A DNA stretch of 64,000 nucleotides from Sediminispirochaeta smaragdinae DSM 11293 (GTDB lineage Bacteria > Spirochaetota > Spirochaetia > DSM-16054 > Sediminispirochaetaceae): assembly GCF_000143985.1 (NCBI RefSeq), contig NC_014364.1, positions 3,596,001 to 3,660,000 of the forward strand. The letters are read 5' to 3'. How positions within the stretch are numbered: position 1 is the first letter of the stretch; every line of letters begins with the position of its first letter. The notes beneath the pieces were generated by a model. It ran no database searches. It was given only the letters and a program-made list of their open reading frames with translations, and had not been told where the DNA came from. Positions 2,980-15,581 of this stretch are shown here, piece by piece. The translations under genes were made by a program, and so were the position numbers.

Positions 2980-4810
2980 TAAAGAGATCAACAAGCTGCG
3001 GCTCAAACATCGTACCGCGTTGAAGCAGAAGGAAAGACTTCGCCGCCTCGGGGCTCATCTCATTACGATAAGGCCTTTTTGCCGTTATGGCATCATATAC
3101 ATCGGCAACACAAATGATCCGTGCGATGCGAGGGATTTCGCCTCCCACCAGTCCGCAAGGATATCCCGATCCATCCCAGTGTTCATGGTGGTATAGGATC
3201 CCCTTCACAACATCGGGGAATCCCGGGATGTTATCGCAGATCTCGGCGCCCTTCCGGGGATGCTTTTTGATGATCTCATACTCATCCTCGGTAAGCTTAC
3301 CCGGCTTGTCAAGAATCGCTTCACTAATTGCCAATTTCCCGATATCGTGCAGCAGGGCCGAAATGGAAAGCTGTTGCAGATCGGATTCGCCGAACTCCAG
3401 CTCTTCGCCTATTCGAAGGGAGAGAAGCCTGACCCGTTCGGAATGACCTGCCGTCCAGCTGCTTTTTGCATCGACGGCTGCGGAAAGAGCCTTTAACGAG
3501 CCCAAAAGTAACTGCTCCCGTTCTTCTGCATAGAGGATGTTTTGCAGAGCCACGCCCACCTGATCGGTTAGTTTTTTAATGATGCCGATATCTTCATCAC
3601 CAAAGGTTTCCTTGGAATCGGAAGTAACGAGAAGAGAACCATAATAGGAATCTTCAAGAACGATCGGCATATTGAGAACCCATGAACGTTCCGCCGGCAT
3701 TTCCCGACGAAGGCGATCACTGATTTCCAGCTCCGAAGAGCGGAAAAGCCGAGGATTCTCGAGACTGGCACGCATCTGGGAAGAAAGGTCCTGATTAGAG
3801 GCAAAGGATCGTTCGATCCTTTGGGCGCTGTTGATCCCCTGGCGCTCGACAAGCAAATCAAAACCGTTACCCTTCCTATTTACCAACATCAGGAAAAGTC
3901 CGTTTTTCGGATAGAGGGATGAGACAATATCTGCGACATTGCCAAGCAGATGCTCCCTGTTGGCGGAAGAGAGAACGGCCTTATCGATGCGGTTCATGGT
4001 TTCCAATACATCGGCCTGGTGCTGAGCCAGGGAAATCTGATGCGAGAGTTCATCCTTCATAAAATCGATGGTCTGACTCAGGCGGGCAATCTCGTCCCGC
4101 CCATGAAGGTTTAAGCTGGTTTCCCGGGCTCCGGAAGCAACCTTGCGGGCCTCCTCGCTGAGCCAGTGTATGGGACGAATAATCCTTTTCACAAAAAGTT
4201 GACTCAAGAGAAAGGAAAGGAGGAGAAATAGCAGAGAAAAGAAAAGAATTTCTTGCAGAAAAAACGAAACGACCGAAATGAGGCCGGAGTGTATCCCTGA
4301 AAAATGGATCACTACCGGATCCGTAAAGGTGGGCGAGCTAACATCGGCGGCAAAAGAGAAGCCGTTTTCTCTGCCCCAAAAGGGAGGATGATCTCTGGAG
4401 ATCCCTTTCTCAAGGGCACGATCAAGCTGTTGTCCCAGCTTTTCCTTGGGAACTTCGGACGTCAATGGAGGTCCCCCGATTTGTTCCCATCCCAAGCCTT
4501 TGAAGCTGAAGAGTCTGACGGACAAGGTGGGCCGAAACGGATCGGGCAAGCCCGCAAGGGGAGATTGAAAAAGATGCAGTGCCGGTCCGCTGGATTGCAG
4601 CTCCTGCAACAACTCCTCGATAGACCCAGTCGACTCCACAAGACTGCCGATCTGCCCATGGTAGTAGGAGATAAGCTTATGACTCCATCCCATGGTAAGA
4701 ACGATAAAGACTATATAAGCGATCAGGAGACCGAAAAATGCAAAGTGTAAGGATAGCTGCAGCCAAAGCGGCGCATTTCCGCAAATTTTGGGCTTTCTCA
4801 TAGGAGACAA
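2960..4810 (-). CDS. HAMP-GAF-HD-GYP c-di-GMP phosphodiesterase
   Basis: Membrane-anchored signalling enzyme predicted to hydrolyse c-di-GMP. Order: membrane helix (about 17-40), extracytoplasmic sensor region (41-175), second helix (178-205), HAMP (208-260), GAF (about 265-410), HD-GYP (about 425-612). Metal-site motifs are intact: HSERV, LLHDIGK, HHEHWDGSGYP and ADVYDAIT. I keep the TTG start at 4810 because GAGG lies 7 nt ahead; ATG 4801 is an alternative with poorer spacing. The input signal is unknown. It is divergent from the acetyltransferase gene and convergent with the NYN gene. Confidence 0.9.
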   Translation of the reverse strand: MSPMRKPKICGNAPLWLQLSLHFAFFGLLIAYIVFIVLTMGWSHKLISYYHGQIGSLVESTGSIEELLQELQSSGPALHLFQSPLAGLPDPFRPTLSVRLFSFKGLGWEQIGGPPLTSEVPKEKLGQQLDRALEKGISRDHPPFWGRENGFSFAADVSSPTFTDPVVIHFSGIHSGLISVVSFFLQEILFFSLLFLLLSFLLSQLFVKRIIRPIHWLSEEARKVASGARETSLNLHGRDEIARLSQTIDFMKDELSHQISLAQHQADVLETMNRIDKAVLSSANREHLLGNVADIVSSLYPKNGLFLMLVNRKGNGFDLLVERQGINSAQRIERSFASNQDLSSQMRASLENPRLFRSSELEISDRLRREMPAERSWVLNMPIVLEDSYYGSLLVTSDSKETFGDEDIGIIKKLTDQVGVALQNILYAEEREQLLLGSLKALSAAVDAKSSWTAGHSERVRLLSLRIGEELEFGESDLQQLSISALLHDIGKLAISEAILDKPGKLTEDEYEIIKKHPRKGAEICDNIPGFPDVVKGILYHHEHWDGSGYPCGLVGGEIPRIARIICVADVYDAITAKRPYRNEMSPEAAKSFLLLQRGTMFEPQLVDLFINLRDR

Positions 4811-6343: not shown

Positions 6344-6784
6344 ATGATTCAATTTGAGCATATTGCGAAAGAGCTTGCCGACTGGGCGGCAGGACATGCG
6401 GAAGTCCTGGCCATCGTCGGGGCTGTTTCGGCATTCATGTTTATCGTAACGCTTGCAATTTTACCGCTTGTTATTCTTGCCATTCCCGAAGACTACTTTG
6501 TGAAGGAACAACAAAGCGGCTGGGGCTTCGGCCTGCGACACCCTTTGCTGAGGACTTTGCTTGTGATCGGAAAGAATATTATCGGGATCGTCCTTTTTAT
6601 GGCCGGATTCATCATGCTTTTTATTCCCGGTCAGGGCCTGCTGACCATTCTCATCGCCATTACCCTGCTTAACTTTCCCGGTAAGAGGAATCTCGAATTA
6701 CGGCTGATGAAAAAGCCTAAGATCGCAAAGGGCGTGGGATGGATACGAAAGAAGAAGGGGAAAAAGCCGATCATCCTTCCCTGA
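6344..6784 (+). CDS. Small membrane protein, PGPGW-like
   Basis: A 146-residue integral membrane protein with two main hydrophobic segments (about 22-48 and 75-115) and a basic C-terminal tail rich in Lys. The segment F-I-P-G-Q-G-L-L-T-I-L-I followed by N-F-P-G-K-R resembles the PGPGW family of uncharacterised transmembrane proteins. Function is unknown. It is convergent with the next minus-strand gene and overlaps it by 14 bp. Confidence 0.65.
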   Translation: MIQFEHIAKELADWAAGHAEVLAIVGAVSAFMFIVTLAILPLVILAIPEDYFVKEQQSGWGFGLRHPLLRTLLVIGKNIIGIVLFMAGFIMLFIPGQGLLTILIAITLLNFPGKRNLELRLMKKPKIAKGVGWIRKKKGKKPIILP

Positions 6785-7268
6785 TCGCAAAATCATTTTT
6801 AAGGCAACGGCAAAGGGCCTTCATATCCGCTCCTTCCTTTTCTAATCCGCTTTCCATGAGGATATCATCGCGGTTCGCCTCGAACCAACGGTACAAGCGA
6901 TCGGCTGCAGCCCTTTGCGTCGGGGCTTTTGCGGCAATCCGAACCAAGGCCATCACCTCGGCCTCATCCATGATCGAGCGTGCATTACCAACCTGAAGGA
7001 ACAAATGGCCCCTTTTCCCCGCACGATCGAAAAAAACCCGATGAGCCCGTTTAGGCCGATTCTTTCCCTCCCCGTTCGGGGATGCAGCCTCAGGGCTTTC
7101 TGCCTCGGCAAGAGCCATTCGTTCATTAAGCTCGTCTACCTTTTTGTTATGAACCAGGACCGCAGCCTGGCGCAGAAGGAAGGAAAGGTTCTCTTCCGAG
7201 AGCTCTCCGAGAAGGCCATCTATCTCTTCGATGAGGCGCTCACGCCGCCCGTTTTCTTTTCGTCCCAT
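6771..7268 (-). CDS. Hypothetical protein
   Basis: A 165-residue soluble, charged protein. I do not recognise a family. The N-terminal half is helical and Glu/Arg-rich, with a possible coiled coil around residues 10-50. The C-terminal half has regular amphipathic helices. The frame stays open upstream to 7337, but ATG 7268 avoids overlap with the operon gene before it. It lies 25 bp downstream of the XRE-cupin-Ptb gene and could be the last gene of that operon; whether it has anything to do with fermentation is unknown. Confidence 0.5.
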   Translation of the reverse strand: MGRKENGRRERLIEEIDGLLGELSEENLSFLLRQAAVLVHNKKVDELNERMALAEAESPEAASPNGEGKNRPKRAHRVFFDRAGKRGHLFLQVGNARSIMDEAEVMALVRIAAKAPTQRAAADRLYRWFEANRDDILMESGLEKEGADMKALCRCLKNDFAIREG

Positions 7269-7293
7269 AATCCAAAGATAGCACGCGACTCTT

Positions 7294-8853
7294 CTATTTT
7301 CCGTCTTCCTCGTAGCCGGAGTAGACCGCAGAGGCACAGAGGGTAAGGAATTTCGTCATGTCGCCGTCGCTCCTGCTGGTGATGATCAGGGGGACGGTAG
7401 CACCAAGTACGATGTTGGCAACATCCGCCGACATGGTCATGGCCCATGCCTTATACAGGAAGTTTCCTCCGGAGATGTGCGGTACGATCAGGATATCGGC
7501 CTTTCCTGCAACCGGATTATCCTCTATTCCCTTGTGACGCGCCGAATCCTCATAGAGGGCAAGATCATAGGAAAGCGGACCGTAGACCGTTGCGTTCGGC
7601 CATTCCATTGCCGAAAGCTCCTGGGCAAACATGGTGGTGGGAAGCTTCTTGCTGGGGAGTTCATTTGCATCGAGAATGGCCACCTTCGGTTTTGCAACCC
7701 CAAGGGCCCGGGCCACATCGATGCCGTTCAAGATGATGTCACGGCTTGTGGCGAGGTCGTCGCCTGTGGTGAGGGCGGTATTGATCCCCGGATCCGTGAG
7801 GAAGATAAGCCGATTCAGTTTCGGAAGCTCGAAAATACTTACCAGGGAAAGCCTCCTGCCGCTTCCGATTCCCGACTGCTTATCAAGTACCCCTTTCATG
7901 AAGATGGCGGTGTTGATATTCCCCTTCATCAGCATGTGGCCACGTCCTTCGCGGATCAGGGCCACACCACGATCGGCACAACGACGCTGGTAGGCTGTCT
8001 GGGCCGGGTCCGCATCATCCCCTGCCTCATGCTCCACAGGAACGATCTCATAGCGATTTGCATAGCGCCGGTATGCCTCAGGAAAGGTACCGGGATCCCC
8101 TACCAGGAGGGCATCCTCCACGACACGCTCCTCCATGGCCCGGTTCACCGCCTCAATGGCGGTATCATTGGGAAGAACAACGACAACACTCCGGCCTCCG
8201 AGGTGGCGGGCAGCCTCAATTAATTCCGTCATCTTTCGGCTTCGTGTAAGATGCCGCATGCTGGCGGCATTGTAGACAGCCACCATCACCTTGGCCCGGT
8301 CTCCCACAGAGGAGAGGGCATGCGGGAGGGAAGAATCAAAATAGATCGAGTCTCCGACATTGAGAAGGTGCTCTCTGCCGTCGACAATGATCTTCAGCTT
8401 TCCCTCCATAACATAGTGGAACTCCTCCCCCTCGTGTGAGGAATATTCAAGCGTATCGGGTTCATTGGGGTAGACATCTACAAGAAAGGGTTCAATGTGC
8501 TTACCGGCATAGGAAGGAGCAAGACTTTCATAATCAAACTGCCTCCGCCGTTCCACCTTGACCCGTTCCTCACGGCTGGTGACCATCACCGACCGTGCAT
8601 CAAAGGCCTTGCCGTATATCAGGGTAGAAATATCCGTTTCCAGGGCCGATGCAATCTTGAGAAGGATGGAAACCGACGGCTCATACGCCTCATCCTCCAT
8701 CCGTTCGATCAGCGCCAGGGGTTCTCCGATGCTATCGGCCAGCTCCTCTCGACTGATATTCGCCTTCTCCCGAAGAGAAAGGAGATGTTTTCCCGTATAC
8801 ACACACATCCTCCTTATACTTTTCTCCATGATAGCCTTGTATCCGGCTCCCAT
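7294..8853 (-). CDS. Fusion: XRE HTH - cupin - phosphate acyltransferase
   Basis: A 519-residue protein joining three modules. An XRE-type helix-turn-helix lies at about 18-75. A cupin lies at about 110-200, with the HEGEEFHYVMEG and HAL metal-site region. A complete phosphate acetyl/butyryltransferase domain lies at about 205-515, with MLMKGNINTA, KPKVAILDANE, GKADILIVP and GNFLYKA. XRE-cupin proteins are DNA-binding regulators; Ptb moves an acyl group from CoA to phosphate. This may be an acyl-CoA-sensing regulator or a bifunctional protein (inference). ATG 8853 is one base after the buk stop, suggesting coupled translation. A true ptb is two genes upstream. Confidence 0.85.
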   Translation of the reverse strand: MGAGYKAIMEKSIRRMCVYTGKHLLSLREKANISREELADSIGEPLALIERMEDEAYEPSVSILLKIASALETDISTLIYGKAFDARSVMVTSREERVKVERRRQFDYESLAPSYAGKHIEPFLVDVYPNEPDTLEYSSHEGEEFHYVMEGKLKIIVDGREHLLNVGDSIYFDSSLPHALSSVGDRAKVMVAVYNAASMRHLTRSRKMTELIEAARHLGGRSVVVVLPNDTAIEAVNRAMEERVVEDALLVGDPGTFPEAYRRYANRYEIVPVEHEAGDDADPAQTAYQRRCADRGVALIREGRGHMLMKGNINTAIFMKGVLDKQSGIGSGRRLSLVSIFELPKLNRLIFLTDPGINTALTTGDDLATSRDIILNGIDVARALGVAKPKVAILDANELPSKKLPTTMFAQELSAMEWPNATVYGPLSYDLALYEDSARHKGIEDNPVAGKADILIVPHISGGNFLYKAWAMTMSADVANIVLGATVPLIITSRSDGDMTKFLTLCASAVYSGYEEDGK

Positions 8854-8854
8854 G

Positions 8855-9925
8855 TCAATAAGTCAAAAGGGGTTCTCCTTCACAGACATGCCTGGCTGCG
8901 GCCTGGGCAAGGGCAAGCATCTCCCGTTCTCCCTCAATAATCTTCACCGGGGCAATCCAGCTGCAACGCTCCGTAATCCAATCGGACAGGGGCGGATGGG
9001 GCAGCCCCCCGGTGAGGACAACCGCATCGACCTTTCCCTTCAGGGCCGTAGCCATCGCCCCGATCTCCTTGGAAATCTGGTATGCCATGGCCTTGTATAC
9101 ACTTTCGGCCCTCTGATCTCCTGCCGCAATACGCTTACACACCTCACGTCCGTCGGGGGTCCCGAGGTAGGCGAAAAGGCCGCCGCGCTGAACCATCGCC
9201 CGCTTCATCTCATCGGCAGATGAAAATTCACCGCTGAAGGCAAGGTCGATTACCCCGCAAAGGGGAAGGGTCCCGGTTCTTTGCGGAGAAAAAGGCCCTT
9301 CCTCGTTGGCATTGTTTACATCGATCATTCTCCCCTTTCTCATCGGGGTAACCGAAATCCCACCGCCGAGATGGGCTATGATAAAATTGAAATCACCAGC
9401 GCTCCCCCCCATCTCTCTGGCCGCCTCTCGGGCAACAGAGCGGATATTAAGGGCGTGAATCATGCTCTTTCGGGGAATGGAAGGCCAGCCGGAATAGCGG
9501 GCTTCCTCTTCAAATTGATCGACACCAACGGGATCGGCAATGAGCGAAGGCACGCCAAAACGTTCGCCAAAACGACGGGCAAGGACGGCACCGAGGTTTG
9601 ATGCATGGATTCCAAAACGATGGTGGGAGAGATCATCGATCAGTGTATCGGAAACCGCATAGCTCCCCGCCTCCAGGGGACGGGTAAGCCCTCCTCTTCC
9701 GGCCACAGCATCGACATGCTCTATGGCAGCGGAGGTCAATACACCGGCGATAGCATCCTCACGCAGCTGCAATTGCTCCATGGGATCGGAAAAACGCCTG
9801 ACAACGTCGTCCTCTACAGGAAGGCTTTTGGATGCAAGTTCCTCTAACTGCCAGGAATTTTCACCCTGAAAAAGAGCAATTTTCGTACTCGTCGAACCGG
9901 GATTGATGATGAGAAAGCGACTCAT
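8855..9925 (-). CDS. buk: Butyrate kinase
   Basis: Cytosolic acyl kinase of the acetate/butyrate kinase family, 356 residues, normal length. It transfers phosphate from butyryl- or another acyl-phosphate to ADP. It begins with the ASKHA-fold LIINPGSTSTKIALF. Further motifs are GRGGLTRPLEAG, HLGGGISV and VLTGGLP. Its start overlaps the ptb stop by 4 bp, and the fusion gene starts one base after its stop. In this operon it would complete substrate-level phosphorylation on acyl-CoA made by the indolepyruvate oxidoreductase. The preferred acyl chain cannot be read from the sequence. Confidence 0.95.
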   Translation of the reverse strand: MSRFLIINPGSTSTKIALFQGENSWQLEELASKSLPVEDDVVRRFSDPMEQLQLREDAIAGVLTSAAIEHVDAVAGRGGLTRPLEAGSYAVSDTLIDDLSHHRFGIHASNLGAVLARRFGERFGVPSLIADPVGVDQFEEEARYSGWPSIPRKSMIHALNIRSVAREAAREMGGSAGDFNFIIAHLGGGISVTPMRKGRMIDVNNANEEGPFSPQRTGTLPLCGVIDLAFSGEFSSADEMKRAMVQRGGLFAYLGTPDGREVCKRIAAGDQRAESVYKAMAYQISKEIGAMATALKGKVDAVVLTGGLPHPPLSDWITERCSWIAPVKIIEGEREMLALAQAAARHVCEGEPLLTY

Positions 9926-10818
9926 GCACCTGTCCCCTTACCGCAGGAAAGGGCCAGTATCATCGAAAGAAATTTCTCCCTGACCGTATCGCTTCGGGAA
10001 AGCAGGACAATGGGATAGCTTGCACCCAGAATGATCCCGCCGCCGTGAAAGCCGCCAAGGTAAAGCAGGCTCTTTCCGAGATGGTTTCCAGCCGCAATAT
10101 CGTGGGTAAGGAGGATATCGGCATCCCCTTTTATCGCCCCCTGATACCCCTTTAACACGGCAGCCCGGGGGACAACCGCCAGATCGAGGGCCATGGGGCC
10201 ATCTACGATGCAACCGCTTATAGCCCCGGTCTGGTATCGCTCTTTGAGCTGGGCAGCATCGAGGGTTTCAGGCATCTTGGAATTGACCTTTTCATTGGCA
10301 GCCAACACCGCAACTTTCGGGTTTGCTACCCCAAGGCGGTGGAAAAGCTCCACGGCAGAGTTGAGAATCGTCTGTTTTGCCTCGATGTCGGGGCGGATAT
10401 TCATACCGCCGTCGGTGATGCCGAGCATCCGGCCTTCAGGGCTTTCCACCACCAAGGCATGAGAAAGAAGCTGTCCTTTGGGGAACAAGCTTTTTTCCGT
10501 AACAACGGCATGTAACAGGGTTGGGGTGGAAAGTGTGCCCTTCATCAAAAGCGCAGCCTTCCCCTCTTTGACGGCGGCAACGGATCGTGCCGCGATCTCT
10601 TCTTCGTTTCCAGCCGAGATGACCGCTACAGGATCGATTCCGTAGCGTTCTGCCAAGGCTGTTGCCGTCTCTGATTCTCCCACAAGGACGAACCGGGCAA
10701 GCCCTTTCTTCTCTACCCTTTCAAGGGCCTGGAACAGCTCATCTCCCTCAGCCCCCGCTACGGCGATCGTTTGGGGCAGCCCCCCCTTTAACTGCGCCTC
10801 GAGTCGGGCAAAGCTCAT
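9922..10818 (-). CDS. ptb: Phosphate butyryltransferase
   Basis: Converts butyryl-CoA or a related acyl-CoA plus phosphate to acyl-phosphate and CoA. It has 298 residues, full length for Ptb. Family motifs include ALLMKGTLSTP, ITDGGMNIRPD, NPKVAVLAANEKV, GDADILLTHDIAAGNHLGK and IVLLSRSD. It overlaps iorB by 4 bp upstream and buk by 4 bp downstream, so the three are co-transcribed. Place in pathway: acyl-CoA from IorAB, then acyl-phosphate, then ATP by Buk. Confidence 0.95.
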   Translation of the reverse strand: MSFARLEAQLKGGLPQTIAVAGAEGDELFQALERVEKKGLARFVLVGESETATALAERYGIDPVAVISAGNEEEIAARSVAAVKEGKAALLMKGTLSTPTLLHAVVTEKSLFPKGQLLSHALVVESPEGRMLGITDGGMNIRPDIEAKQTILNSAVELFHRLGVANPKVAVLAANEKVNSKMPETLDAAQLKERYQTGAISGCIVDGPMALDLAVVPRAAVLKGYQGAIKGDADILLTHDIAAGNHLGKSLLYLGGFHGGGIILGASYPIVLLSRSDTVREKFLSMILALSCGKGTGA

Positions 10819-11411
10819 CCACTCCTCCTTCTGCTACCGGCCTCGGCAACATCCCTGCCAAGGGAAAGGGCCTTTAGGTTGGTTTCGACAACAAGCTCCC
10901 CTTTGCTTGCAAAGCGTTCCCGGACCGCTTCTTCCATTGTAGAAAATTCAATTGGTAAATGAAATGATGCCGCACCAACAAGGACCATGTTTGCACTTCT
11001 CGCACTCCCAGCGGTAAGCGCCAATGCATCTGCAGGAATCGTCAGGGCCCGTCCGAAGGATGAAATAGATGAGAAAATGGCTTGCTTTTCCGGATAGTCA
11101 GGTATATTGATCTCGCAGTGGTCGGAAGTAACGACACTTCCCCTTTCGGAAAGGAAATCAACATAGCGAAGACTTTCAAGGGGTTCCATGCTGAGGATCA
11201 TATCCGCCCGCCCTTTTGCAATAAGATCTCCGGGAATAGGGCCATCGGAAATACGCAGATCGGCCTGCACCGCACCACCACGCTGGGCCATGCCGTGGAC
11301 CTCGGACTGACGAACTTCCAGGCCCGACATCATTGCCGCCCGGGCAATAATAGCGGCAACGGAAAGAACACCCTGCCCCCCTACTCCACAGAGAATAATA
11401 TCATACTTCAT
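10815..11411 (-). CDS. iorB: Indolepyruvate:ferredoxin oxidoreductase, beta subunit
   Basis: The gamma/beta-type subunit (198 residues) of a 2-oxoacid:ferredoxin oxidoreductase. The N-terminus IILCGVGGQGVLSVAAIIARAA is the characteristic G-V-G-G-Q-G nucleotide-fold motif, followed by QSEVHGMAQRGGAVQ. With IorA it oxidatively decarboxylates aryl pyruvates, forming aryl-acetyl-CoA and reduced ferredoxin. Its start overlaps the iorA stop by 4 bp. Confidence 0.93.
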   Translation of the reverse strand: MKYDIILCGVGGQGVLSVAAIIARAAMMSGLEVRQSEVHGMAQRGGAVQADLRISDGPIPGDLIAKGRADMILSMEPLESLRYVDFLSERGSVVTSDHCEINIPDYPEKQAIFSSISSFGRALTIPADALALTAGSARSANMVLVGAASFHLPIEFSTMEEAVRERFASKGELVVETNLKALSLGRDVAEAGSRRRSG

Positions 11412-13027
11412 GCCTTTGCCTCCTTTTTATGCTTCCGCTTTGCGGTCTGGATACACTCGCGAAATGCAAAAACAACCGAGACCCCTTTGTATTCGATCTC
11501 CCTGCGAAGCAGATCGCTGTTTTCCTCGTGCCTTGCCGGAAGGGGTACCATCTCCACACAATGCTCCGGCTCAACGCCCAGGCCGAGAACAACCTTGCGT
11601 ATGCCCTTCGATTCGAAAATCGTATCCTGGCCACCGGTCATAGCGGTGGTGGAGTTATCCAGAATAAGAATCGTGATCGGGACCGATGAGCTCACAGCAT
11701 CCGCAAGACCGGTAAGGCCGGAATGCATGAAGGTACTGTCGCCGATGACCGCAACCACAGGATACATACCAGCCTGGGCGGCACCTCGCGCCATGGTGAT
11801 ACTCGCTCCCATGCATAGTCCCGTCTCGATTGCCTCAAGAGGGGGTAGATAGCCGAGGGTGTAACAGCCGATATCTCCGGTGACGAGATGATTCTCATAG
11901 GCTTCGAGGGCCGTATTCAGGGCCTTGAAGGTATCCTGGTGAGGGCAGCCCTTGCATAACTGAGGGGGTCTGCCGGGAAGCGAGACAAGGCTCCCGTGAC
12001 CATCTTCCAAGGTGGAAGATGGTTCCGGAAGCTTTAGGGCGGTGCGGACGATATCCGGGTTTAATTCTCCCGAAGGAGGAAGGCAGCCATCCAATTTGCC
12101 GCTAATGGTGACAGGAACGGGAAGAATACCTCGTAGCAAACGTTCTATGAAGGGATAGCCTTCCTCTATGCAAAGAATGCGTTTGCTGCCAGCGGCAAGA
12201 GTTCTGATTTTATCCTCAGGCAGGGGATAAAAATTGACATGCAGGACGGAAGGCGAAAAACCGAGGTCCTCAGCATTCTCTTCAAAATAGTTGTGGCCAA
12301 GACCGCTGGTGATCACCGAAAATGGGGTATCCGTATCCCCAAACTTCAAAGGATTTAGCGTTTCCGACTCGGCGTAGGCCTGCAGCCGCTTATACAACTC
12401 AAGATGCTCTACATAGCGCTTCCTGCTTGTGGCAGGCAAGGTGATAAAGTCCTCTTTTCCGGTGAATTTCGCCATTGGATTGGCGCCGCGGGAAGGATTC
12501 GGTCTGACGATTGCCCTGGAGTGGGAAAGACGTGTCACCAGGCGAAGCAGCACCGGTACATGAAAACGCTCCGAAAGATCAAAGGCGGCACGAGTCATTT
12601 CATAGGCCTCCTGCTGATTGTGAGGCTCAAAGCAGGGAAGCTTGGCAAAATCAGCATAAAAGCGACTGTCCTGTTCATTCTGGGAACTGTGCATTCCAGG
12701 ATCATCGGCAACAGCCAGAACCAGGCCCCCCTTGATATTCATGATTGCCGAATTCATAAAAGGGTCGGCGGCGACGTTGAGGCCTACGTGTTTCATGGTC
12801 ACAAGAACCCGACGATTCATCGCCGAAGCTCCTACGGCAGCCTCGTACGCGGTCTTTTCATTCGAGCACCACTGGGCTCTGACCCCGCTTTTCGGTTCGA
12901 GGACCTGCTGCATATATTCGATGATTTCCGTCGAAGGGGTGCCGGGATAGCCATAGGCAAGGCTCACGCCTGCATGCAAGGCCCCAAGAGCCACCGCCTC
13001 ATTCCCCAACAATACATATCCATCCAT
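11408..13027 (-). CDS. iorA: Indolepyruvate:ferredoxin oxidoreductase, alpha subunit, no ferredoxin domain
   Basis: The large TPP-binding subunit, 539 residues. The N-terminal pyrimidine-binding region has G-Y-P-G-T-P-S-T-E and the C-terminal TPP region has GDIGCYTLG and GDSTFMHSG; CKGCPHQ lies between. Canonical IorA ends with a ferredoxin-like segment carrying Cys clusters for 4Fe-4S centres. This protein stops at a Lys-rich tail (KRKHKKEAKA) just where that segment would begin, so electrons must leave by another carrier. I chose ATG 13027 because GAGGGAG lies 6 nt upstream; ATG 13042 is upstream in frame but lacks this signal. First gene of the operon. Confidence 0.92.
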   Translation of the reverse strand: MDGYVLLGNEAVALGALHAGVSLAYGYPGTPSTEIIEYMQQVLEPKSGVRAQWCSNEKTAYEAAVGASAMNRRVLVTMKHVGLNVAADPFMNSAIMNIKGGLVLAVADDPGMHSSQNEQDSRFYADFAKLPCFEPHNQQEAYEMTRAAFDLSERFHVPVLLRLVTRLSHSRAIVRPNPSRGANPMAKFTGKEDFITLPATSRKRYVEHLELYKRLQAYAESETLNPLKFGDTDTPFSVITSGLGHNYFEENAEDLGFSPSVLHVNFYPLPEDKIRTLAAGSKRILCIEEGYPFIERLLRGILPVPVTISGKLDGCLPPSGELNPDIVRTALKLPEPSSTLEDGHGSLVSLPGRPPQLCKGCPHQDTFKALNTALEAYENHLVTGDIGCYTLGYLPPLEAIETGLCMGASITMARGAAQAGMYPVVAVIGDSTFMHSGLTGLADAVSSSVPITILILDNSTTAMTGGQDTIFESKGIRKVVLGLGVEPEHCVEMVPLPARHEENSDLLRREIEYKGVSVVFAFRECIQTAKRKHKKEAKA

Positions 13028-13107
13028 ATAGATCTCCCTCATATGGTTTCCACCGGTGTATATCACCTTTCTACCATAGCTTATACTGTTTTTCAACAAT
13101 TTATTCT

Positions 13108-13198: not shown

Positions 13199-13666
13199 GT
13201 GAAGGGCATGCAACTGGACGATACAAACCTAAAAATTCTCAGAATCCTTCAGGACGATGCATCACTGACAAATCAGGAACTTTCCAACCGAATCGGTCTT
13301 TCTCCTGCAACAACCCTTGAACGAGTCAAGAAACTCGAACAGGCCGGCATCATTCGAAAATACACAGCACTTGTCGATGAGAAAAAGCTGAACAAACACA
13401 TAAAGGCCTACATATTCATCACCATGAAAGAACATAGCAATCAGAGCCTCATCGAATTCAATAAGCGGATTAAAGATCTCCCGGAGGTACTCGAATGCTG
13501 CCGCCTTGCCGGCGAGAAGGATTACATCCTCAAGGTCATCGTCGATAATATTGAGGATTTCGAACTCTTTACCCGCACCCGTCTCACCACGATTCCCGGA
13601 ATCGACAAGACCAGTTCAAGCATTGTCCTGGCCAGCATTGTCGACCGAACCGATATACCGCTGTAG
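13199..13666 (+). CDS. Lrp/AsnC family transcriptional regulator
   Basis: A 155-residue regulator with an N-terminal helix-turn-helix (about 10-60; LTNQELSNRIGLSPATTLERV) and a C-terminal RAM effector domain (about 75-150; LEC-CRLAGEKDYILKV). These proteins sense amino acids and act as octamers. It is transcribed away from iorA, so it probably controls the ior-ptb-buk operon and itself. GTG 13199 has GAGG five bases upstream; ATG 13208 is the alternative. Confidence 0.92.
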   Translation: MKGMQLDDTNLKILRILQDDASLTNQELSNRIGLSPATTLERVKKLEQAGIIRKYTALVDEKKLNKHIKAYIFITMKEHSNQSLIEFNKRIKDLPEVLECCRLAGEKDYILKVIVDNIEDFELFTRTRLTTIPGIDKTSSSIVLASIVDRTDIPL

Positions 13667-13742: not shown

Positions 13743-13913
13743 ACCTTGGTATGCTTAAAAAATATATTAATAAACTGAGTTTTTCCCAATCCGGTTACCT
13801 CAATACACCGAAAAGAACTCTCTTAACATTCGTAACCCACTCATCACTTTACCGCAGCTTTTTCATAAGCAGAAAGTGATATAGGGCATATAAACTCTTT
13901 GGAAGGAGGATTG

Positions 13914-15581
13914 ATGATGTGCTGGAAACTTTTTAAGAAGATCACGGCACTGCTGGTTGTGCTGCTATTAGTCGGCTTCACGATGTCCTGCAATCTTTTT
14001 GGGGGTAGCGATAGCGACGATGATGATGACGGAGGCGGCGGAAGCAGCGGTGGAACATCCGAGTTAATCACCATTACAAACCCCGCGGCCGGAGCAGTGG
14101 TTACCACAGAAACCATCACGGTAAGCGGAACCTGGAGCGGCACAACTCCGGATTCAATTGATGTTTCGCTTGAAGGCAACGAGGTCAATGCAAAAATAGG
14201 TAACAAGACGTGGTCTGCAACCTTCACTCCTTTGACCAAGGGAAGCAAGTTGATTTGGGTGACATCCTATGACGCAGATGATGAAGAGATCGCTGATACA
14301 ACTATTATCATCGACTACGAGTACAGCCTCGCGGCTGAAGGTCATACCGTGACCATTTCCAATATCAGTAAGGGAAGCCACACGATCACATCCGGATACC
14401 TCTACGCCTTCTTAAGTAAGAATGAATATGGGGATCCAGCCTACATTTCCGCTGGGGAAGAAATTACGGCAAGCACATCATGGTCAAGTACATCGATAAG
14501 TATCGAAAATGTTGGAGATTATACCGACGGCTACTATGTGGAAGTAGTGGTTCTGGAAAATGACATAAACAGCACCCCCTACAAGAGTTTGTTCATAGGA
14601 AGCGCGGGGAGCACTACAATCTCGCTAAGCCCAAATGACGATGCCGTTGTTTCATTCAACACTGAAATTGCCCTTCAGGACGATGATGCAAGCCTTGCCT
14701 CCCTGAGCTTAACAGATGCCGACGGCCATGCCATCTCCCTCTCCCCTACTTTCAGCTCGGATGTGTATGACTATACGGCTACGGTAGGCTACGAAGAGGG
14801 AAATAGTGTTACTATAGCGGCCACTGCGAACAGTTCTTACGCTGAGCTCTTTTGCGATTATGCAAACGATGACACTGCGGGGTGGTCTTCCTTAGATCTT
14901 TCTTCGCCATCCACTATAAATCTTCCCGTGGGAACGACAGGCATTGAAATTACGGTAGAAGCCGAATCAGAAAGTGAAAACGCCTACTTCATCGAGCTTA
15001 CACGAGGGGCTGAAGCCGATGCCGACGATCGCAACGGAACCTACCAATGCAGCGGCTACGATGAAGATGAAAATGAAAATTACACGGCCACGTATGTGTT
15101 TACTAACGGTTCATACACATATACCTACACCGCAACGAGCGGTAACTATGAGGACAATGGGACCTATTCGGCATCAAACGGCGTTCTGACGCTGAGTGAT
15201 TCCGACAATGCCTACGACTTGTTTGAAGCCGGAAGCTTCTATCCCGATGCCTATAAACGGACCAGTGGAACAAGCGGAATCATCGGGACCTGGAAAAGCC
15301 TTGTCGAAGGTTATGGATACTATGAGATGCTGACCATAGAAAGCGATGGTAACTTCAGTAACATAGAATATGATAGCTCTGATACAGCAATAGAGACTAT
15401 AAGTGGCACCTACTCAGTCTCAAACGGTGTCCTTACACTGACAATAAAATCAGAAAGTGGAGATATACTAGGGGTATGTTATACGAAGTACGTCCTTCTC
15501 TCCTCGGATGACTATCTGTCCATTGGCGTTCCTGTTAGCGACAGCAGCAATGCGAACGACGGAGGCTTTGCAAAGCAGTAG
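13914..15581 (+). CDS. Secreted lipoprotein with cadherin-like domain
   Basis: A 555-residue predicted surface lipoprotein. The N-terminus has Lys residues, a hydrophobic stretch and T-M-S-C at about residue 26, a loose lipobox of the kind accepted in spirochaetes. An acidic Asp run and Gly/Ser linker follow. Residues around 260-370 match the cadherin-like beta-sandwich pattern (LSPTFSSDVYDYTATV). The C-terminus has two lipocalin-like repeats, each with G-T-Y/W ... SNGVLTL. Role unknown; adhesion or binding of an extracellular ligand is a guess. ATG 13914 follows GGAGG; a second ATG follows directly. Confidence 0.75.
   Translation: MMCWKLFKKITALLVVLLLVGFTMSCNLFGGSDSDDDDDGGGGSSGGTSELITITNPAAGAVVTTETITVSGTWSGTTPDSIDVSLEGNEVNAKIGNKTWSATFTPLTKGSKLIWVTSYDADDEEIADTTIIIDYEYSLAAEGHTVTISNISKGSHTITSGYLYAFLSKNEYGDPAYISAGEEITASTSWSSTSISIENVGDYTDGYYVEVVVLENDINSTPYKSLFIGSAGSTTISLSPNDDAVVSFNTEIALQDDDASLASLSLTDADGHAISLSPTFSSDVYDYTATVGYEEGNSVTIAATANSSYAELFCDYANDDTAGWSSLDLSSPSTINLPVGTTGIEITVEAESESENAYFIELTRGAEADADDRNGTYQCSGYDEDENENYTATYVFTNGSYTYTYTATSGNYEDNGTYSASNGVLTLSDSDNAYDLFEAGSFYPDAYKRTSGTSGIIGTWKSLVEGYGYYEMLTIESDGNFSNIEYDSSDTAIETISGTYSVSNGVLTLTIKSESGDILGVCYTKYVLLSSDDYLSIGVPVSDSSNANDGGFAKQ

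Follow-up and report, generated by a model that had tools for sequence, protein, structure and literature searches.

The stretch of DNA analysed here (64,000 nucleotides of Sediminispirochaeta smaragdinae DSM 11293, referred to as the window) carries a minus-strand operon whose last gene is a fusion. The gene order is iorA and iorB (alpha and beta subunits of a 2-oxoacid:ferredoxin oxidoreductase; 11408..13099 and 10815..11411), ptb (a separate phosphate butyryltransferase-like enzyme; 9922..10818), buk (butyrate kinase; 8855..9925), and the HTH-cupin-Ptb fusion gene (7294..8853). IorAB converts 2-oxo acids to acyl-CoA, and Ptb and Buk convert acyl-CoA to the acid and ATP. A gene for an Lrp/AsnC-family regulator lies divergently upstream on the plus strand (13199..13666), and is the more conventional candidate for regulating the operon.

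The fusion gene is a single open frame of 519 amino acids on the minus strand; the plus-strand reading of the same interval contains stops. It starts one base past the buk stop codon and, because homology sets in near residue 18, the ATG codons at 8853, 8829 and 8808 are all possible starts. Three Pfam families match the protein: HTH_3 at residues 26-76 (4e-7), Cupin_2 at 124-194 (1.6e-15) and PTA_PTB at 228-499 (5.5e-24). The frame and these matches confirm the initial annotation, which had described a 519-residue XRE HTH, cupin and Ptb/Pta protein encoded one base after buk, with a separate ptb in the same operon; it made no mention of iorA and iorB as the leading genes of that operon (13099-10815). 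The HTH domain (residues 20-80; 8614..8796) has five helices in the structure model, is net negative and lacks the DNA-contact signature; its recognition-helix region (residues 43-55; 8689..8727) reads GEPLALIERMEDE. The cupin domain (residues 119-198; 8260..8499) contains the invariant residues H140, E144 and H178, a possible metal triad. The Ptb/Pta-family domain (residues 205-516; 7306..8241), whose nearest solved fold is 7VG9, carries the catalytic motif S493-R494-x-D496 (7366..7377), equivalent to S279, R280 and D282 of CaPTB.

The same architecture is found in a sister species (99% identical) and in 12 further Spirochaete MAGs (58-68% identical over the full length; one of these orthologues, L029, is truncated where its contig stops). 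Since 12 other Spirochaete MAGs carry the gene, the fusion is not a sequencing error, and the orthologues likewise rule out a chimeric assembly. Counting the domain order across genomes, as had been proposed at the outset, showed the fusion to be rare: it occurs in 3 of the 393 genomes of an even sample of Spirochaetota. A scan of 84,980 species relied on exact 8-mers of one protein, and so reaches close relatives only and could miss distant fusions in other phyla; the 72,556 plasmid records yielded no full-length match.

At the fusion loci examined outside the window's genus, ptb-buk never adjoins the gene, which rules out a fixed linkage of the fusion to ptb-buk. Its neighbours there are leuA, directly upstream in three loci (L024, L025 and L028); a DUF438-hemerythrin-PAS gene (L022, L023 and L026-L028); a divergent gene of the Glu/Leu/Phe/Val dehydrogenase family (L021); or adk (L030-L032). 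The fusion is not a fixed operon member either, because in four genomes (G049 and G431-G433) the last gene of the related iorA-iorB-ptb-buk operon encodes an aminotransferase, and in G431-G433 the fusion is located elsewhere in the genome. The role in controlling fermentation that had been suggested for the protein is thus not a general one. All 14 fusion genomes tested have buk (against 67 of 393 genomes across the Spirochaetota sample), all 14 have a separate ptb, and 12 of 14 have iorA; as the fusion genomes are related, this association is suggestive only. With another ptb in every one of these genomes, the fusion is ruled out as the sole Ptb partner of Buk, and there is no obvious need for a second Ptb enzyme. 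Two side observations concern these neighbourhoods: in one subgroup the DUF438-hemerythrin-PAS protein is repeatedly encoded downstream of the fusion (L022:1866-3140, and L026-L028), which hints at redox or oxygen sensing nearby, and in one iorAB-ptb-buk-aminotransferase operon iorA and iorB are themselves fused into a protein of 767 amino acids (L077:7778-10081).

The Ptb half was compared with the active-site and conserved residues reported for CaPTB (PMC9706017). D217, K228, N250, K254, S279, R280 and D282 are all kept in the fusions, as is K186 in 12 of 13 (arginine in the other); S283 is replaced by glycine in the window's fusion and is serine or asparagine in the others, and methionine stands in place of E285. 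Of the residues that never vary among 19 ordinary Ptbs, all but P365 and S504 are equally invariant in the 13 fusions, and several near-invariant positions are altered (H337L, K370S, L429Y, S434Y and G480N). The Ptb core is the best-conserved region of the fusion, with a mean pairwise identity of 80% against 54% for the HTH. Judged by these residues, the Ptb half is probably active. Phylogenetic analysis places the fusion Ptb domains in one clade, outside all ordinary Ptbs, with a stem length of 1.82 changes per site, and the fusion scores 204.6 bits with the NCBIfam Ptb model TIGR02706 against a cut-off of 410.5, which the window's ordinary ptb also fails to reach. The conserved core and long stem would fit an enzyme that underwent a single change of role or substrate and was constrained from then on, and the altered P365, S504 and near-invariant positions, together with the stem, are compatible with such a changed role. 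Fold, catalytic residues and CoA-site residues are common to the fusion and CaPTB (PDB 7VG9); the N-terminal HTH-cupin, the sub-cut-off NCBIfam score and the separate long-stem clade set the fusion apart. Enzymes of the PRK08190 type (enoyl-CoA hydratase/phosphate acetyltransferase) resemble it in joining a Ptb-like domain to an extra N-terminal domain, but that domain is not an HTH-cupin.

The structure model used here was built from 54 aligned sequences (pLDDT 89.5, pTM 0.71), an earlier model from 14 sequences having been set aside as poor (pLDDT 57.6). Its Ptb half matches 7VG9 with a TM score of 0.92, its N-terminal half matches HppE and 1Y9Q, and the HTH fold is intact. By sequence, the nearest solved relative of the N-terminal half is HppE, ahead of the Vibrio cholerae regulator 1Y9Q; residue 32 of the fusion is asparagine, aligned with Lys23 of HppE. 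Like the fusion, the epoxidase HppE is an enzyme with an HTH-like domain, acidic in charge, and a cupin; unlike it, HppE is a stand-alone iron enzyme without a Ptb domain.

The order HTH_3 then Cupin_2 is that of XRE-cupin regulators (HTH_3 being matched in 9 of the 14 fusion members), and the fusion shares it, along with the cupin residues E144 and H178, with the repressors PuuR, SutR and ErfA/PsdR/DbuR. To this extent the protein resembles the regulator that the initial annotation took it for, but in contrast to these repressors it has an acidic HTH without the recognition-helix signature, and an additional enzyme domain; furthermore, its relatives pair with synthetases. The signature comprises five positions, picked after viewing the alignment, of which the fusions retain 0-2 and the ordinary XRE-cupins and controls 4-5 (n=18: 15 spirochaete proteins plus PuuR, SutR and 1Y9Q). 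Mean HTH charge is -4.5 in the fusions versus +2.5 in ordinary XRE-cupins, all 12 full-length orthologues being acidic, and the recognition helix is variable among orthologues. These features point to a loss of DNA binding by the fusion HTH, a conclusion drawn from surface residues and not from the fold, since the fold is intact in the model; acidic charge and a missing signature do not prove such a loss.

The nearest stand-alone relatives of the HTH-cupin half are encoded directly upstream of a same-strand AMP-forming acyl-CoA synthetase in 30 of 30 cases, and these synthetase-paired proteins have a signature score of 0-2 and a mean charge of -4.2. Loss of the signature is seen in 9 + 30 rows of synthetase-paired HTH-cupins (a few of them identical) and also in four proteins in which HTH-cupin and acyl-CoA synthetase form one chain of 753-787 amino acids (L130:1571-3835, L131:1161-3512, L132:1177-3537 and L133:960-3218), from two spirochaete genera of another family; the HTH is predominantly acidic in all these groups. 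In the tree, the Ptb fusion and the synthetase fusion arise separately, each within the synthetase-paired group (SH-aLRT 97). At the fusion loci examined there is no adjacent or fused AMP-forming acyl-CoA synthetase, the Ptb domain taking that place, so the partner role of the HTH-cupin is inferred from its relatives. The link to acyl-CoA metabolism that had been proposed for the protein is right. One of the paired ligases comes closest to the branched-chain MbcS family, without reaching its cut-off. Some operons hold two or three HTH-cupin/synthetase pairs in tandem; several dedicated repressors in one operon would be odd, whereas several dedicated enzyme partners would not. In one operon (L092:4500-13685) a 2-oxoacid:ferredoxin oxidoreductase is followed by three such pairs.

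The pairing was tested outside the phylum with ten relatives from plasmid records, the signature having been fixed beforehand. The five synthetase-adjacent proteins, all from Bacteroidales, have charges of -1 to -6 and signature scores of 1-3, and the five non-adjacent ones have charges of 0 to +6 and scores of 3-5, so that the two sets are fully separated by charge, and by signature with one tie. Relatives of the synthetase-paired module also occur in gut Bacteroidales, and at E <= 1e-15 they are found in 86 of the 393 Spirochaetota genomes, a figure that includes some ordinary members. A search of the open-access literature found no paper on the fusion architecture or on HTH-cupin/acyl-CoA synthetase pairs.

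We hypothesize, with a slight leaning in its favour, that the fusion is a Ptb-family enzyme, probably active, whose HTH-cupin part senses a metabolite and acts on the enzyme rather than on a promoter. The HTH-cupin belongs to a lineage that accompanies acyl-activating enzymes: usually it is a stand-alone protein whose gene immediately precedes that of an AMP-forming acyl-CoA synthetase, in one event it was joined to the synthetase, and here it is joined to Ptb. Under this hypothesis the cupin, with its conserved His-Glu-His site, would most likely sense a small metabolite, and the HTH-cupin would adjust or assist the attached enzyme directly, not by repressing a promoter. In the window, IorAB would supply the acyl-CoA on which the fusion acts, alongside the usual conversion to ATP by Ptb and Buk. 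That the HTH-cupin may act on enzymes and not on genes is suggested because its relatives accompany acyl-CoA-making enzymes and its DNA-reading residues are lost.

The main rival, which we consider unlikely, is a bifunctional trigger enzyme, the other option of the initial annotation: an active Ptb that doubles as a DNA-binding repressor, binds or leaves its operators as acyl-CoA and phosphate levels change, and thereby controls iorAB-ptb-buk in the window and, in other genomes, leuA or the fusion gene itself. Local metabolic repressors do have the HTH-cupin architecture (PMC7901475), the model shows an intact HTH fold, and the gene is the last of the window's operon and has leuA directly upstream in three other loci; on the other hand, the DNA-contact signature is lost, the HTH is acidic, the recognition helix varies among orthologues, and no shared operator was found. 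In two loci (L026:9366-9392, and L028 near 3650-3677) the fusion promoter does have a long palindrome overlapping its -10 box, as the sole copy in each genome, but it is absent from L022 and L027, whose HTH is nearly the same. No copy of the element TTTACG...CTCG of L030-L032 was seen ahead of iorA in the same genomes, and a pattern search for it in G431-G433, which returned 0 sites, also missed the known L030-L032 copies and is hence uninformative. Taken together, the operator searches gave no consistent result, and support no DNA target for the fusion.

That the Ptb domain is instead a non-catalytic acyl-CoA receptor signalling to the HTH seems to us quite improbable, although there are precedents (PMC7902834, PMC6449761), and the long stem branch and the ever-present separate Ptb would suit it. 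One precedent is MaeB, whose PTA domain is reported to sense acetyl-CoA without acting as an enzyme (PMC7902834, PMC12704298). MaeB hybrid malic enzymes resemble the fusion in joining a PTA-fold domain to an unrelated module, but in the E. coli protein this domain has lost nearly all of the active-site residues (it is without equivalents of K97, T102, S123, K228, N250, K254, S279, R280 and D282), whereas every fusion keeps the catalytic residues; this weakens the earlier idea that an enzyme domain has been reused as a sensor. The other precedent, BzdR/BoxR (PMC6449761), likewise combines an XRE-type HTH with an enzyme-like domain, but that domain has a shikimate-kinase-like fold, absent from the C-terminus of the fusion, and BzdR/BoxR has no cupin and is proven to bind DNA. 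The idea that the fusion arose recently or by accident and serves no function of its own (a frameshift, a chimeric assembly or a decaying gene) would accord with its rarity in the phylum; it is nonetheless refuted by the orthologues, 14 sequences reaching down to 58% identity with strongly conserved cupin and Ptb cores, and we give it next to no weight.

The hypothesis of an HTH-cupin acting on its enzyme can be extended, more tentatively and at a little under even confidence, to many annotated XRE-cupin "regulators" beside synthetases in Spirochaetota and Bacteroidales: these may be an accessory module that does not read DNA and that controls or assists acyl-activating enzymes directly, fused separately to two unrelated enzymes of this kind, an AMP-forming acyl-CoA synthetase and a Ptb. 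If so, genes routinely named as transcription regulators would be parts of short or branched acyl-CoA enzymes in gut and environmental anaerobes, and the module would be another case, as HppE suggests, of an HTH fold kept for protein work after DNA reading was lost. The one-chain fusions make the idea of an accessory module directly testable on single purified proteins.

Two further observations concern the surroundings of the window's operon. Beside it, at 13899-15581, is a gene for a lipoprotein that looks secreted and has a cadherin-like beta-sandwich domain. On the minus strand, a frame of 188 amino acids (6771-7337) shares 44 bases with the fusion gene at the latter's 3' end; it has no family match, and its copy in the sister species is 96% identical.
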